DNA from: a virus
Length of the DNA: 36,615 bases
Virus record (IMG/VR): IMGVR_UViG_3300038701_002776
Coordinates: 1-36,615 of that record
Strand: one strand, 5' to 3'
Shown here: positions 13,074 to 19,690 of the stretch, in pieces
Layout of the letters: each line of letters starts with the position of its first letter
Position numbering within the stretch: the first letter of the stretch is position 1
Notes under the pieces: generated by a model
What the model was told of the DNA's origin: nothing
What the model saw: only the letters and a program-made list of their open reading frames with translations
The model's database searches: none
Position numbers and translations under genes: made by a program

Positions 13074-13649
13074 TCAGGCAAGGCGCCAAAGCGTGGGGAT
13101 GCCTCGCCGCACGGTGCGGTCGGCGGGCATCCAGAGGGTGTCGAAGCGGTACTGCGCGCAGCGGGCAAGTTCGGCGGCCAGGTCGGTCGCTGCCCCCAAC
13201 ACCTCGCCGTCGGGGGGCGGGTACGCGCGGAGGTGTACGGGGTCCACCGGCTCGCCGAGCAGGCGATGGCTGCCGGGGGCCTCGGAACGGTCGGGCAGTA
13301 GGTCGCACTGGCCGATGATTTCGACGGGCGGCGCCCGGTGCTCTCGCCAGTATGCCTCGAACGCCTCCCGGCGCGTGATGCGCGGGGGAGCCTCCGGCCG
13401 ACCTCCAGGAATCCAGTCGTAGACATCGAAGTAGCCGTGCAATGGGCGCCCTCTGTCACGGGGGATGTCGTCGTAGTGCATCAGGCGCCGGTCGCGCGCC
13501 TCGCTCACCGCAAAGCGCCGGGTCGGGTTCTCCATGTGCGCAAGGTGCAGGAAATCCGCACCGACGCGCCCGACCAGGCGGTACTCGCGGCGGCTAGGAG
13601 ACGGATCGCGGGTGTCGGAAAGCATGGTCGCTACTCTGCCCGATGGCAT
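13074..13649 (-). CDS. Unknown protein downstream of the integrase
   Basis: The 191-aa protein is rich in Arg, Pro and Asp with no membrane segment; no family was recognised. A candidate core is HYDDIPRDRGRPLHGYFDVY, a well-formed mixed segment, followed by ITRREAFEAYWREHRAPP. The start at 13649 is supported by AGGAG four nt upstream on the minus strand; it overlaps the end of the integrase gene by 56 nt, so the two are probably co-transcribed leftward. The gene ends 15 nt from the end of the convergent lysis operon, leaving no room for a normal terminator between them. A role in lysogeny or excision is possible from its place only. Confidence 0.5.
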   Translation of the reverse strand: MPSGRVATMLSDTRDPSPSRREYRLVGRVGADFLHLAHMENPTRRFAVSEARDRRLMHYDDIPRDRGRPLHGYFDVYDWIPGGRPEAPPRITRREAFEAYWREHRAPPVEIIGQCDLLPDRSEAPGSHRLLGEPVDPVHLRAYPPPDGEVLGAATDLAAELARCAQYRFDTLWMPADRTVRRGIPTLWRLA

Positions 13650-14685
13650 CGGTCTCCTGCAACCCCCCGGCGATCACGCGGAGCGCCGGGCGCCCAGTGG
13701 CCGGCTCTCGGTTGATCGGCAGGCCCGCATCGGGAGTGATCCGGCGCGCCTCCTGCGTGTAGGCGTAGTACTTGCGCAGCATGGTGGCCTGGTCGTGGCC
13801 GCAGTAGCGGGCCGCGTCAGGGATCTGCATGTTCCCGCTGTTGAGCTGGTGGGCGATGAAGGTGTGACGGGTGCAGCGCAGCGGGCGGTCGGCGACCTTG
13901 CCGGCGAGGTCGCGCATCACGGCCCGATGCTGGCGGTTGGAGAAATTGTGCTCATCCAGCGGCGCCCCGGTCGGTCCCCGAAACACGAAGTCGAGATCGG
14001 CCAGTGGGCCGTTCGCCGGCGCCTCCCACGACCAGGTCGGATCCGGCGTGCGTCGCCGTAGGCTCCGCAACTCCTCGAGGACATCCCCGGCCAGGCGGAT
14101 CGTTCGCAGGGATTGCGCCGTCTTGCCAGGGCTTATGTGGGCGCCGGCGCCGGCGCCATCGCGGGACCGCGTGATGGCGCAGACCCCTGTCTCGAGGTCG
14201 AGATCATCCCAGACCAGTCCGAGGGCCTCGGTGACGCGGCAACCGGTCCCGAGGAGGAACGTCACGTAGGGAACCGCCCAGGGGAAGCGCTCCTGGTAGG
14301 TGTCGAGGACAAGCCCCGCTTCGGTCGGAGTCCAGGGCCCCATGCGCTCGGTGCGGTCGCGGCCGAGGTTGCTGGTGCGGAGTTTGCGGGCGGCTGTGAC
14401 TCGGTTGTAGGTCTCGATCGAGCAGTCGCCGTCGTTGCAGGCGTCGCGGATCATGGCCTGGAGGGTGTTCAGGGTCTTGCGGGTGGTCTCGTTGGAGAGC
14501 CCGGCGTCGCGGCACTGGCGCCGGATCTCGCGGACGTGCTCGTCGCCGAGCTCGTCGAGATCCAGGTCACCGATGATGTGCATCGCGCGCTGCAGGCGGC
14601 TCCTCCTCTGCCTCTCCTCGCGCGGTGTGACTTCCCGCTCCCCACTGCCTGACCCCCAGTGCGCGACATAGTCGCGCGTCCGCAT
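13594..14685 (-). CDS. int: Tyrosine recombinase (phage integrase)
   Basis: The 363-aa protein has an N-terminal SAM-like core-binding region (about 35-105) and a catalytic domain with the expected residues: box-I Arg (R150 in LLGTGCRVTEALGL), beta-hairpin Lys (K188 in SPGKTAQSLRTI), box-II Arg (R273 in CTRHTFIAH), second His (H297 in YCGHDQATM) and the Tyr nucleophile (Y307, in KYYAYT). The usual first His of the HxxR motif is Arg here (R270), a substitution found in some active family members. It would join attP to the host tRNA-Val gene; attP lies about 220 bp upstream of the start, the usual arrangement. The ATG at 14685 was preferred over TTG at 14721; neither has a clear ribosome site. 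Confidence 0.9.
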   Translation of the reverse strand: MRTRDYVAHWGSGSGEREVTPREERQRRSRLQRAMHIIGDLDLDELGDEHVREIRRQCRDAGLSNETTRKTLNTLQAMIRDACNDGDCSIETYNRVTAARKLRTSNLGRDRTERMGPWTPTEAGLVLDTYQERFPWAVPYVTFLLGTGCRVTEALGLVWDDLDLETGVCAITRSRDGAGAGAHISPGKTAQSLRTIRLAGDVLEELRSLRRRTPDPTWSWEAPANGPLADLDFVFRGPTGAPLDEHNFSNRQHRAVMRDLAGKVADRPLRCTRHTFIAHQLNSGNMQIPDAARYCGHDQATMLRKYYAYTQEARRITPDAGLPINREPATGRPALRVIAGGLQETDAIGQSSDHAFRHPRSVS

Positions 14686-14807
14686 AGGTGAAGTACGTGG
14701 CCTTACGCACAGGTCGGTCAATGCCAGTGGCTTAAATTTTCCTGAAGGGCGTCGCGGTTACGCCCCCGGCTGCCGCGGGTCGGACGAAACTTTTTGTCGC
14801 GCGCCTG

Positions 14808-14837
14808 TTGACCTTCCGTCGGCGAGTCGGCTAGAAC
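14808..14837 (+). promoter_or_regulatory. Candidate rightward early promoter
   Basis: TTGACC (14808-14813) is followed after 18 nt by TAGAAC (14832-14837), which matches four of six -10 positions and five of six -35 positions. It points towards attP and the early operon that starts at 15215 and is the best sigma70-like pair in the 500-bp gene-free stretch 14686-15214. A transcript from here would cross the attachment site, so integration into the tRNA gene would separate or reconnect it. This is a reading by eye only. Confidence 0.4.
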
Positions 14838-14898
14838 ATCCGCCGTGATCTGCGCAACCAAAACGGTTGCTGCCAGGGGTCACGGTGCGCTCGAGCTG

Positions 14899-14952
14899 AG
14901 CATCGGCCTTACAAGCCGAGGGTCGCGTGTTCGAGCCACGCACCGCCCACCA
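14899..14952 (+). other. attP: attP core: 3' half of a tRNA-Val(UAC) gene
   Basis: The bases can be folded as the 3' part of a bacterial tRNA-Val. There is an anticodon stem-loop at 14903-14919 with loop CTTACAA (anticodon TAC at 14910-14912), a variable loop GGGTC, a T arm of five pairs around TTCGAGC (14925-14941), the acceptor 3' strand ACCGCCC (14942-14948), a discriminator A and an encoded CCA (14950-14952). The part before the anticodon arm does not form a D arm with GG, and no 5' acceptor strand complementary to ACCGCCC is present, so this is not a whole tRNA. Phages that integrate into a tRNA gene carry just such a 3' part, restoring the tRNA after insertion. It is next to the integrase gene. 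Confidence 0.85.
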
Positions 14953-15214
14953 TTTGGCAGCCAGCAAAAACAGGCACTTAGCCAAAGCCCCCGAATGGGC
15001 CATCCGGAGACGGATGCGCCCGGGGTCGCCCGGCTGCCCGCGCCGCGCAGATCACACTCCGTAGCGGCGCCGGGCGGCTCCCTTTCGGGAATCGCCTCCC
15101 GAACCACCACCACCGACTTTTTTCTGTTCGCCCCCCTGGTGAGGCTTCCCCGCTTGGGGGGATTGCCCATCTGCGCCGTTGTGGGGGCCGGAGTCTCAAC
15201 GACCGGAGATGAGC
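14953..15214. promoter_or_regulatory. Gene-free leader after attP with competing hairpins
   Basis: No gene was seen in these 262 bases. They hold short structures in the direction of the early operon. TCCC-TTTC-GGGA (15079-15090) competes with CGGGA...TCCCG (15086-15101). A run of six T follows at 15118-15123. Next, CCCC-GCTT-GGGG (15148-15159) competes with a longer CCCCCC/GGGGGG pairing (15131-15136 with 15156-15161). Mutually exclusive hairpins before a T run suggest an attenuator or antitermination leader, but the T run lies 16 nt after the stem, which is not a standard intrinsic terminator. Part of the stretch next to 14952 may hold integrase arm sites. Confidence 0.3.
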
Positions 15215-15511
15215 ATGGAACGACGACGACCGCCCCGCTTGGGCTTACTGGCGGCGATGGCCGCGATGATGCACGGGCCATCCTTCGCCTCGGCAACGGC
15301 GACTCGACGAGACCCCGACGAGGGCGCCGCCGCGTCCCGGGTGAGGCGCCGTCGCAAGCGGGCGCACCCGCGGGGTGGGAGTCGGCTCGGTCCTATCGAC
15401 CCCCGCGTGCCGACCGGCAAGCGGATCACGCCCTGGATGAAGGCCCGCTTCGACGTGGGCGAGATCGGCGAGCGCACCGCCGCGTGGATGTCGCGGCGGC
15501 CGCTGGCCTGA
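15215..15511 (+). CDS. Small basic protein, first gene of the early operon
   Basis: The 98-aa protein has an Arg-rich start, a hydrophobic stretch ending in FASA (LGLLAAMAAMMHGPSFASA, a possible weak Sec leader) and a strongly basic middle (RVRRRRKRAHPR) before a short helix with WMKARFDVGEIGERT. No family was recognised. The start at 15215 has GGAG six nt upstream; an ATG at 15209 lies directly on that site and is less likely. It is the first gene after attP and the candidate promoter. The C-terminal segment looks like a real protein segment; the basic part could bind nucleic acid. Confidence 0.5.
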   Translation: MERRRPPRLGLLAAMAAMMHGPSFASATATRRDPDEGAAASRVRRRRKRAHPRGGSRLGPIDPRVPTGKRITPWMKARFDVGEIGERTAAWMSRRPLA

Positions 15512-15559
15512 CCCCCCTCGGCGGCCCGTTGGGGGCTGCTGCAACCACAGGAGGCCCAA

Positions 15560-15904
15560 ATGGGCGGACTCACGATCAACGACATTGCGCGGGTAGCGCA
15601 CGAAGCGAACGCGGCGCTGTGCCGAGCCTTCGGGGACGACTCGCAGCCGAGTTGGGAGGATGCCCCGGAGTGGCAGCGGTCGAGCGCCATCAACGGCGTG
15701 CGGCTTCACCTGATCGGCGACCACGGCCCGGAGGCGTCGCACGAGAGCTGGATGGCCGAGAAGGTCGAGGCGGGCTGGACCTACGGCGAAACGAAAGACC
15801 CCGAGGCGAAGACGCACCCCTGCATGGTGCCGTTCTCCGAGCTCCCGCCGGAGCAGCAGGCCAAGGACCACGTCTTTCGAGCCGTGGTGCACGCGCTCAA
15901 GTAG
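15560..15904 (+). CDS. RyR-domain protein
   Basis: The 114-aa protein is one complete RyR domain, the fold first seen as a repeat in ryanodine receptors and common as a stand-alone phage protein. Hallmarks are IARVAHEANAALCRAFGDD near the N terminus, PSWEDAPEWQRSSAINGV (about 30-47), ESWMAEKVEAGWTYGETKD (about 62-80), HPCMVPFSELPPEQQAKD (about 86-103) and the closing VFRAVVHALK. The start is set by AGGAGG ten nt upstream. In some bacterial defence proteins the domain binds modified nucleotides, but the role of the phage versions is unknown. It is followed directly by a six-pair hairpin (15904-15920) and the large structured region. Confidence 0.85.
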   Translation: MGGLTINDIARVAHEANAALCRAFGDDSQPSWEDAPEWQRSSAINGVRLHLIGDHGPEASHESWMAEKVEAGWTYGETKDPEAKTHPCMVPFSELPPEQQAKDHVFRAVVHALK

Positions 15905-15927
15905 GCGGCCCCGAGCCGCCACAGACT

Positions 15928-16524
15928 CCCAGCCCTGCGTCAGCGGCAAGGAAGCCGTGCGGTGCAGAGGTGGTCGAGACCGCGCCCGCGACCGCGGCCG
16001 GCCGAGCGCCGGCAGAGATGGGCCAGGGCTGGGAACCCCATCGACCCCCTGCGGCGTGGCGACGCCACCAGGGTTGTGGCCGAAGGACTGCCGGTGCTGG
16101 CGAGGGGACGACGCGCCCCGACGAGAGCACCGGAGCCCGTCTCGGACGGTGCCGGGCTGAGGAATCCGGCCAGGGGGTCGACCCCATCCCCCACCTGACG
16201 CCGGCAATTCCGTCGGCTGCCCGCGAGCCCCGAACCTCGCTGGCGGGTGGGGGTCCTTCGACCGACTCGCATCGGTCGTGGCCAGGTCCTCGACCCCTCG
16301 GACCTGGCCACCGTCGGGCGCCGATCGTGTCCAGTTTCTTCCCAGGCTGGCCGATCGGGAGGCGCCGATCCGCAGGCACGCACCGAGCCCCCTTCCCCCC
16401 GGGCCGCAGCGTGTCCGGCGCCTCAGCCCGTCCCCTTTCAGCATCGCGGCGGCGAGTTTCCTCCTCCTCTCGCCAGATCGCCGCGAGAGCGGCCGGCGCA
16501 GCCGTGGGGTTGGCTGCGCCGGCC
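15928..16524 (+). ncRNA. Candidate large structured RNA
   Basis: Some 600 bases without a credible gene contain nine consecutive perfect stems. P1: 15928-15937 with 16024-16033 (10 pairs). P2: 16041-16051 with 16171-16181 (11 pairs), closing a multibranch loop with hairpins at 16053-16068, 16091-16098/16126-16133 and 16134-16139/16153-16158. P3: 16188-16195/16246-16253. P4: 16259-16265/16272-16278. P5: 16279-16289/16300-16310 (11 pairs). P6: 16321-16327/16352-16358. P7: 16359-16367/16416-16424, with an inner CACGC/GCGTG. P8: 16444-16451/16479-16486, with an inner GCGAG/CTCGC. P9: 16491-16503/16512-16524 (13 pairs). P4/P5 and P6/P7 abut, as in coaxial stacks. Size, phage setting and ornate fold recall GOLLD and ROOL RNAs; membership cannot be tested here. 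The strand is assumed to be that of the operon. Confidence 0.7.
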
Positions 16525-16550
16525 CACCAACCCGCACAGCAGGAGGCACC

Positions 16551-16622
16551 ATGCTGCAGCGACTGACGACGATCACGTTCTGGGCGATGGCCTTGCCCGT
16601 CTGTTTCTGGGTTCTGCGATGA
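16551..16622 (+). CDS. Tiny membrane peptide (23 aa)
   Basis: The peptide is MLQRLTTITFWAMALPVCFW plus three residues, a single hydrophobic segment with one Cys. AGGAGG stands four nt before the ATG, the strongest ribosome site in this area. Its stop overlaps the start of the next gene (ATGA at 16619-16622), so translation is probably coupled. It begins 27 nt after the last stem of the structured region. It may be functional or serve as a leader peptide for the next gene. Confidence 0.5.
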   Translation: MLQRLTTITFWAMALPVCFWVLR

Positions 16623-16990
16623 CACAGCTCGGACTGCTCGATGGAAGCGCTGCCCTGGCGCGACGCACGGATCCGTCCACGAGCCGGAAGGCTGCGGCGA
16701 AGGTCGCGAAGTCCGGCGAGCTGAGCGCGCAGCGTCTGAAGACTCTCGAGAAGCTGGTCGCGATGACGGACCACGGCGGGGAGCCTCCGACGTCCGCGGA
16801 GATGGGAGCCGGCAACCAGGTGGACCGCTACCTGTACGCCCGGCGCCTTCCGGATCTGGCCAGAGCCGTCCCGCCGCTGGTGGAGCGCCTGCCGTCGCGG
16901 GTCTGCGGGCTGACGAAGAACCCGGCCACGACCTGGTCGCCGACGGCCGCCGGCCGCGAGGCGGTGCGCAGGGCGAGGGGGCGGTCGTGA
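16619..16990 (+). CDS. Conserved phage winged-helix-type protein
   Basis: The 123-aa protein has the recognisable order of a small phage protein family: RRTDPSTSRKAAAKV at the N terminus, then SGELSAQRLKTLEKLVAM, PPTSAEMG, DRYLYARRLPDLARA, a Cys-containing turn, and TTWSPTAAGREAV. The middle part reads as a winged helix, so DNA binding is likely. Its start overlaps the stop of the tiny membrane peptide and its stop overlaps the GTG of the next one. The exact role is unknown; related proteins lie in early regions of temperate phages. Confidence 0.6.
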   Translation: MTQLGLLDGSAALARRTDPSTSRKAAAKVAKSGELSAQRLKTLEKLVAMTDHGGEPPTSAEMGAGNQVDRYLYARRLPDLARAVPPLVERLPSRVCGLTKNPATTWSPTAAGREAVRRARGRS

Positions 16991-17076
16991 GCCTCCCATC
17001 ACTTCTCCTGTGGCTCGGCGGCTTCCTCATCGGCTTCTCCGTCTGCAGCATTGCCGTCTGCGGGTGCCCCGCGTGA
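16987..17076 (+). CDS. Tiny Cys-rich membrane peptide (29 aa)
   Basis: The frame has a GTG start overlapping the previous stop (GTGA at 16987-16990) and its own stop overlaps the GTG of the next gene (17073-17076). The peptide is one hydrophobic helix (SLPSLLLWLGGFLIGFSVCS) ending in a Cys-rich tail (CSIAVCGCPA). The double overlap and clear membrane character support it as a real gene. Function unknown. Confidence 0.45.
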   Translation: MSLPSLLLWLGGFLIGFSVCSIAVCGCPA

Positions 17077-17534
17077 TCGGCGGCCAGCCTCTCGGACCGA
17101 AACTCCGGCCGTCGCCCCGCGGCGACGAGCTGTTTCTTCTGGTGGACGAAGACCTGTTTGCTCAATCGCCAGAGAGCGTGGTCGAGACCCTGCGCTTCCT
17201 CGAACTGCAGCCGGTTGCGACATACTTCGACGTGCCGCGTCTTGCGAACCTGCATCTGATGCGGGCGTACGGCGGGCAACGCTTCACCTGGACGGATGCC
17301 GGATGGCCAACTTACAGCCTGGACGCCGTCGGCGATCTGCTCTTCATGTATCCGACCCCGACGTGGGTAAGCAGCGCTGAGTGGTCGGAGGATCACACAA
17401 AGCCCGTCGTCTCTCCGTTCATTGGGATCGCCGATTTCGACAGGAGCGCCTTTCGCGTCGGCGTCGCCCTGGCCTGTGTCGGCCTTCCTCTCACCGCAGT
17501 CGCCATCGGCTGCCTGATCCTCGGAGGTCTCTGA
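17073..17534 (+). CDS. Tail-anchored membrane protein, unknown
   Basis: The 153-aa protein has a soluble N-terminal part (about 1-120; GDELFLLVDEDLFAQSPESV, PRLANLHLMRAYGG, TWVSSAEWSEDHTK) and a C-terminal membrane segment (VGVALACVGLPLTAVAIGCL). The GTG at 17073 was chosen because it overlaps the stop of the previous gene, while the upstream part of the frame (Arg-rich) lies over that gene. The next gene begins in its stop. No family was recognised. It might place a cytoplasmic domain at the inner membrane. Confidence 0.55.
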   Translation: MIGGQPLGPKLRPSPRGDELFLLVDEDLFAQSPESVVETLRFLELQPVATYFDVPRLANLHLMRAYGGQRFTWTDAGWPTYSLDAVGDLLFMYPTPTWVSSAEWSEDHTKPVVSPFIGIADFDRSAFRVGVALACVGLPLTAVAIGCLILGGL

Positions 17535-17758: not shown

Positions 17759-17773
17759 GCCTTGGAGGACACG

Positions 17774-18903: not shown

Positions 18904-19313
18904 TGGAGATCTCCCGCACCGATCTGCGCGCCCATCGGCGCACGCTCGTGGAGGCCCGCAAGGCGCTCTCTGCGGCGATCGACATGCTCGATGCGGTGCT
19001 GGAGTCCGAGGGTCCGACTCGCGGGAAGATCCTGGCCGAGGCGGTCCTGACGGCGGCCGAGGACGTGATCGCCCACCCGATGACGCGGGAGGCGATCACG
19101 TCCGGGAAGTCCCGGGAGGCGAGGCAGTGGCGCCGCGCTGCGATCCACGCCGCGGCCGGGCTCGGCGCCGAGCAGACGGAGATCGCCCGCGAGCTCGGCG
19201 TGGATCGTCGTTCGGTGATCTCGGCGCTGCAGGCCGGCGCCGACGAGCAGCTCGTGGCGGCGATCCGGGAGCTGGCCTCCCGGCGCCTGGACGAGCTCCA
19301 GCAGGCCGCGTGA
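18903..19313 (+). CDS. Helix-turn-helix protein
   Basis: The 136-aa helical protein carries a helix-turn-helix at about 88-110 (AEQTEIARELGVDRRSVISA), of the type in resolvases and sigma-like regulators, followed by a C-terminal helix (LVAAIRELASRRLDELQQ). The N-terminal half is a long helix rich in Ala and Leu that could support dimer formation. The ATG overlaps the stop of the previous gene and the next GTG overlaps its stop. It is a possible regulator of early or lysogenic functions; target unknown. Confidence 0.6.
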   Translation: MEISRTDLRAHRRTLVEARKALSAAIDMLDAVLESEGPTRGKILAEAVLTAAEDVIAHPMTREAITSGKSREARQWRRAAIHAAAGLGAEQTEIARELGVDRRSVISALQAGADEQLVAAIRELASRRLDELQQAA

Positions 19314-19690
19314 AGCGGGAGGCGTTCCTTCGATGCTGTCCATGCTTCGCCTGCGGGCGTCCGAGTACCGACGACCAGCGCACCGAGCCGCATCACTGGC
19401 CGACCAGGGGCAGCGGGCGATCGCACCCGCGCAAGACGCTGCCGCTGTGCTTCTTCTGTCACACCGGCAGCGACGTCGCCTTTCATGTCCTGGGGGTCGA
19501 GAGCTTCCAGGAGTACTTCGGGTTCCAGATCGGGCCCGCGATGGAGTTCATCCATGAACTGTACGACCGCATCGGCGCCGAAGAGTGGGCCGACAACGAG
19601 CGCGAGCGCGCCCGCTTTGCCGGTGCCTGCGGCATTTCAGCCTGGTGGACAGGCATGCCCCGGCGTCCCTACACCGAGTTCGGTTTCTGA
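19310..19690 (+). CDS. HNH-like zinc-binding protein
   Basis: The 126-aa protein has a Cys/His arrangement typical of HNH or DUF968-type nucleases: CCPCFACG near the N terminus, EPHHWPTRGSGRSHPRKTLP with the His pair, then LCFFCHTGSDVAFHVLGVES with CxxCH and a further His. Its C-terminal part (YDRIGAEEWADNERERARFA) is helical. It would bind zinc and may cut DNA. The GTG at 19310 overlaps the stop of the HTH gene. It lies beside the VRR-NUC nuclease and the replication initiator. A non-catalytic zinc protein cannot be excluded. Confidence 0.6.
   Translation: MKREAFLRCCPCFACGRPSTDDQRTEPHHWPTRGSGRSHPRKTLPLCFFCHTGSDVAFHVLGVESFQEYFGFQIGPAMEFIHELYDRIGAEEWADNERERARFAGACGISAWWTGMPRRPYTEFGF

Follow-up and report, generated by a model that had tools for sequence, protein, structure and literature searches.

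The window analysed here, a stretch of 36,615 nt, is the record of a 36.6-kb virus without exact end repeats. Between a gene for a RyR-domain protein and a tiny hydrophobic ORF lies a region of about 600 nt with a GC content of ~73%, which is the subject of this analysis. The features of the locus are as follows:

13594–14721, minus strand: tyrosine integrase (PF00589, E=3.6e-10)
14877–14949, plus strand: tRNA-Val(UAC)-like sequence with an interrupted 5' acceptor strand, probable attP core (Rfam RF00005, 30.8 bits; no call by ARAGORN)
15560–15904, plus strand: RyR-domain protein, the upstream gene (Pfam PF02026, E=1.4e-12)
15927–16524, plus strand: candidate large structured non-coding RNA as a whole (excess structure, non-coding in six frames, plus strand favoured)
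16551–16622, plus strand: tiny hydrophobic ORF (MLQRLTTITFWAMALPVCFWVLR), downstream, with AGGAGG 5 nt before its ATG

The earlier note had described the region as gene-free, and this was borne out. A codon model built from 17 of the phage's own genes gives genes scores of +0.30 to +0.64 when they are read in the correct frame, and the RyR gene (+0.41), the tiny ORF at 16551–16622 (+0.38) and the downstream gene p16619 (+0.33) behave likewise. All six frames of 15,927–16,524 score between -0.29 and -0.48, as wrong frames do, and there is no contrast between frames. Long ORFs crossing the region were searched on both strands and gave no Pfam or PHROGs domain within it; a phrog_1123 match in one crossing ORF stems solely from the portion that is p16619, and the minus-strand ORFs that cross the region carry no coding signal. 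No protein frame running across the region was found. Further downstream, p16619, whose 123-aa protein weakly matches phrog_1123, is flanked by two tiny plus-strand hydrophobic ORFs, namely the one at 16551–16622 and another at 16987–17076, and the plus-strand gene pair at 17762–18903 matches phrog_997 ('replication terminator') and phrog_1029 (function unassigned). Elsewhere, phrog_1029 is found mainly in Firmicute phages; the present phage has 69% GC.

The tRNA-Val-like sequence adjoins the tyrosine integrase gene. It has a 3-nt insertion (TCA) in its 5' acceptor strand and is enclosed by the inverted repeat GCTGCCA/TGGCAGC. Over its 3' part, a stretch that takes in the encoded CCA and the next two bases, it agrees at 53 of 54 positions with the tRNA-Val of a Candidatus Binatia MAG; this match to a single genome points to 14877–14949 as the likely att site. 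The phage is temperate, and its host is probably Candidatus Binatia. Judging from the att geometry, a lysogen would carry a restored host tRNA-Val gene directly upstream of position 14,950, i.e., ~1 kb upstream of the candidate RNA and on the same strand as the RyR gene and the RNA. The terminase is a distant relative of the Pam1 terminase (39.5%), and the portal is distantly related to those of HTVC010P-type Pelagibacter phages (~25%).

The stems reported in the earlier note are all present in the sequence:

15928–15937/16024–16033: perfect stem of 10 bp (11 bp with 15927/16034)
16041–16051/16171–16181: perfect stem of 11 bp
16091–16098/16126–16133: perfect stem of 8 bp
16188–16195/16246–16253: perfect stem of 8 bp
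16259–16265/16272–16278: perfect stem of 7 bp
16278–16289/16300–16311: perfect stem of 12 bp
16321–16327/16352–16358: perfect stem of 7 bp
16359–16367/16416–16424: perfect stem of 9 bp
16444–16451/16479–16486: perfect stem of 8 bp
16491–16503/16512–16524: perfect stem of 13 bp

Both pairs of helices said to be directly abutting do abut, but base 16278 is common to two helices, so that one of them is 1 bp shorter. To quantify the stem content, non-crossing perfect Watson-Crick stems with a span below 160 nt were counted and compared with 200 dinucleotide shuffles. The region holds 9 stems (86 bp) of at least 7 bp, 8 (79 bp) of at least 8 bp, 5 (55 bp) of at least 9 bp and 4 (46 bp) of at least 10 bp; the corresponding shuffle means are 41, 22, 9 and 3.5 bp, and the observed number of base pairs was not reached by any shuffle at any threshold. 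At the 8-bp threshold, for example, shuffles contain 2.5±1.1 stems with 21.7±9.5 bp (0 of 200 as good). The minimum free energy (MFE) of the plus strand is -347.6 versus -312.3±7.9 in shuffles (z -4.50; 0 of 100 as good), and z for the reverse strand is -2.76. The claim that this structure is unlikely to arise by chance therefore withstood the shuffle check, in stem content as well as in MFE. Among 119 phage windows the region ranks first in stem density, the next best having 56 bp in stems of at least 7 bp. When 60 windows of 597 nt each were ranked by MFE z, it came second (-3.86, from 15 shuffles); a largely coding plus-strand window at 18928–19524 was marginally stronger (z -3.88). Energy alone would therefore not single out the region; its distinguishing trait is the density of long perfect stems.

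The predicted plus-strand fold is organized as follows:

15927–16034, plus strand: domain 1, an 11-bp closing stem around three hairpins (15943–15958, 15959–15995, 15997–16013), pair probabilities 0.82–0.99
16041–16181, plus strand: domain 2, an 11-bp stem TCGACCCCCTG/CAGGGGGTCGA around hairpins including 16091–16133
16188–16253, plus strand: domain 3, an 8–9-bp stem around two hairpins (16200–16217, 16223–16240), p 0.96–1.0
16260–16311, plus strand: two abutting hairpins, 16260–16277 (6 bp) and 16278–16311 (12 bp, perfect), p 0.97–0.98
16321–16424, plus strand: two abutting hairpins, 16321–16358 and 16359–16424 (9 bp, extended by 7 bp), p ~0.94–1.0
16444–16486, plus strand: hairpin TCGCGGCG/CGCCGCGA with an inner stem, p ~0.6
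16491–16524, plus strand: terminal perfect 13-bp hairpin with no U run after it, p 0.97; not called a terminator here

Domains 1 and 3, both abutting pairs and the terminal 13-bp hairpin are well defined in pair probabilities. For the domain 2 helix 16041/16181 there are competitors within ~3 kcal/mol, among them a long-range helix (16103–16110/16429–16436), so the fold modelled for the central part is tentative. When the modular nine-stem layout of the earlier note is forced, the fold lies only 3.4 kcal/mol above the MFE (of -349), a gap that is inside the error of the folding method. Two sequence motifs were observed in addition. The 12-nt palindrome GGGGTCGACCCC occupies 16174–16185, and TCGACCCC is repeated in the loop of the 12-bp hairpin (16290–16297); a possible intermolecular or switching contact may involve GGGGTCGACCCC and TCGACCCC. 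Furthermore, GGGTTGG in the loop and arm of the terminal hairpin (16507–16513) has its complement in CCAACCC (16527–16533), just before the Shine-Dalgarno sequence of the tiny ORF, and the two might form a helix that is mutually exclusive with the terminal hairpin. Pseudoknot pairing between the terminal loop and the downstream AACCC was set aside on reasoning, not computation, as 4 nt hardly spans a 13-bp stem. No sigma-70-like promoter or U-tailed terminator was found at the region ends, although the host may use promoters of another type.

Perfect stems are symmetric between the two strands, and the strand therefore had to be assessed by other tests. On the plus strand, 140 pairs have a probability above 0.9, versus 71±35 in shuffles (2 of 100 as good) and with 0 of 29 phage windows as good; the minus strand has 94 versus 72±35 (25 of 100 as good). 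Ensemble diversity is 73.9 on the plus strand versus 144±45 in shuffles (3 of 100) and ordinary on the minus strand. When G-U pairs are allowed on the plus strand, stems comprise 86 bp versus 43.9±12.8 in shuffles (0 of 200), and when A-C pairs are allowed (equivalent to G-U on the minus strand), 67 bp versus 49.6±12.0 (17 of 200). There is thus moderate evidence for an RNA read rightward, from the plus strand. Only 10 of 209 pairs in helices are G-U, a low share that is unusual for an RNA under long selection and counts against the RNA reading.

Relatives of the region were sought widely, and no DNA match was found in phage, plasmid, IMG/VR-locus or host-clade searches. Neither blastn against phages and plasmids nor the RyR neighbourhoods of 71 IMG/VR loci nor the neighbours of p18145 yielded a homologue, and scans of IMG/VR with TerL, integrase and p17073 gave no usable relatives, those with TerL and integrase yielding none that was close. 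Relatives of the portal were only ~28% identical. A first search with exact hairpin patterns returned none, and another gave three hairpins that proved unrelated on inspection. Among 395 genomes of the host phylum searched by DNA there were only short chance-like matches, and one of the best, once inspected, breaks a helix; there was no homologue in 13 genomes of the host order, in 148 genomes of the host class searched with a single-sequence covariance model, or with three such models over 81 sources. Near RyR in L049, a region with a high stem score was traced to coding sequence. The region is hence a singleton in the sense of having no other relative in these collections, from which this record and close copies of it may have been masked. 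The absence of a homologue there, and hence of covariation support, counts against the RNA reading and is its main limit.

Known RNA families were searched as well. Across the whole window, 4,227 Rfam families at gathering score matched only the tRNA at 14877–14949 and nothing in the region (OLE included); group II intron, tmRNA and riboswitch identities were rejected for want of an Rfam match. A permissive cmscan of 14,700–17,400 added just two chance-level matches, GOLLD and ROOL being absent. Direct searches at E<=10 gave no match to GOLLD (RF02032), where the control rang only below its cut-off, or to ROOL (RF03087), where the control rang nowhere, so that both results rest mainly on cmscan. 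The possibility, left open in the earlier note, that the region is one of these two RNAs is therefore unsupported. Its broader proposal, a large structured phage RNA, fares better, in that shuffles fold less well and no protein frame crosses. As in large structured (ornate) RNAs, structure exceeds matched controls, here in MFE, stems, pair probabilities and the G-U test.

The element is real, strand-biased, non-coding and structured, and is most likely an RNA. The reading that we prefer, to which we give an even chance, is an orphan ~600-nt structured non-coding RNA of a temperate phage, encoded on the plus strand and most likely stand-alone. Such an RNA would be transcribed and stable and would act in trans, which is more likely than action as a cis leader. 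Its transcription would share the direction of the preceding RyR gene and of the small early ORFs that follow. The RNA would fold into some eight compact helical domains in a row and may serve as a scaffold or as a partner for binding, roles also proposed for OLE, ROOL and GOLLD. Given the presumed tRNA-Val gene upstream on the same strand in a lysogen, this RNA could be produced both by the prophage and during lytic growth.

It is rather unlikely that the region is instead a cis-acting intercistronic or leader RNA, one that yields no independent RNA but stabilizes its mRNA or governs how the tiny membrane peptide and the early genes are translated. The region does lie inside a co-directional gene run, only 15 nt separate the end of its terminal 13-bp hairpin from the AGGAGG of the tiny ORF, and the GGGTTGG/CCAACCC complementarity could act as a switch; however, 600 nt with eight domains far exceeds the needs of a simple leader, and no riboswitch or leader family matches, the DUF1874 match of the permissive cmscan being on the minus strand with 20 bits versus a cut-off of 42.

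It is improbable that the region acts as DNA, whether as protein-binding inverted repeats, as an origin of replication or as a packaging site. Perfect arms, few G-U pairs, the symmetry of stems between strands, and the nearby att site and early genes would suit this reading, but the strand asymmetry in pair probabilities and in the G-U test points to an RNA running in the direction of the neighbouring genes rather than to an array of DNA palindromes. Moreover, the domains are nested instead of repeating a single site, direct repeats are weak with no repeat array and no iterons, and the GC-rich region lacks both an AT-rich unwinding zone and a marked skew switch. To a similar degree we doubt that this is unselected non-coding DNA of a GC-rich genome, in which hairpins arose by chance or through inverted duplication of local sequence. 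Its orphan sequence and the similar MFE z of a largely coding window would fit, but the stem density is unmatched in 200 shuffles and in all other of the 119 windows, and phage genomes seldom retain 600 unused bases. A diverged GOLLD or ROOL RNA, despite the length, phage origin and tRNA-like sequence 1 kb upstream, is very improbable given the negative covariance-model searches.

A new class of RNA is tentatively favoured over membership of GOLLD or ROOL. In a bolder version, which we regard as possible but doubtful, the region would found a new class of large ornate RNAs in phages. Its carrier would be a temperate phage that infects Candidatus Binatia; the RNA might build an RNA-only assembly, and a lysogen would express it from a position downstream of the host tRNA-Val gene. 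If true, an independent class in the phage of a barely studied bacterial group would suggest that large structured RNAs are a recurring phage strategy, and the candidate RNA offers a concrete target for probing and cryo-EM.

Very few RNAs of such size and complexity are known. OLE is likewise ~600 nt and multi-domain but comes from Gram-positive extremophiles and anaerobes (PMC9723947), and the region has no Rfam match. GOLLD and ROOL are phage and prophage RNAs, often near tRNA islands, that form RNA-only nanocages of unknown function (PMC12286853). The genomic setting, which the earlier note had likened to theirs, agrees in phage origin and size, but the tRNA-like sequence is best read as an att site and not as a tRNA island. 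The region shares with GOLLD (RF02032) the character of a large phage RNA near a tRNA sequence, but is shorter (many GOLLD members exceed 800 nt). From ROOL (RF03087) it differs as a chain of hairpin domains in a single orphan copy; the ROOL model, with 574 positions and an elaborate structure, phage- or prophage-borne and often near tRNAs (PMC12286853), is nevertheless comparable, and the resemblance to ROOL and GOLLD in size and setting may serve as a lead only.
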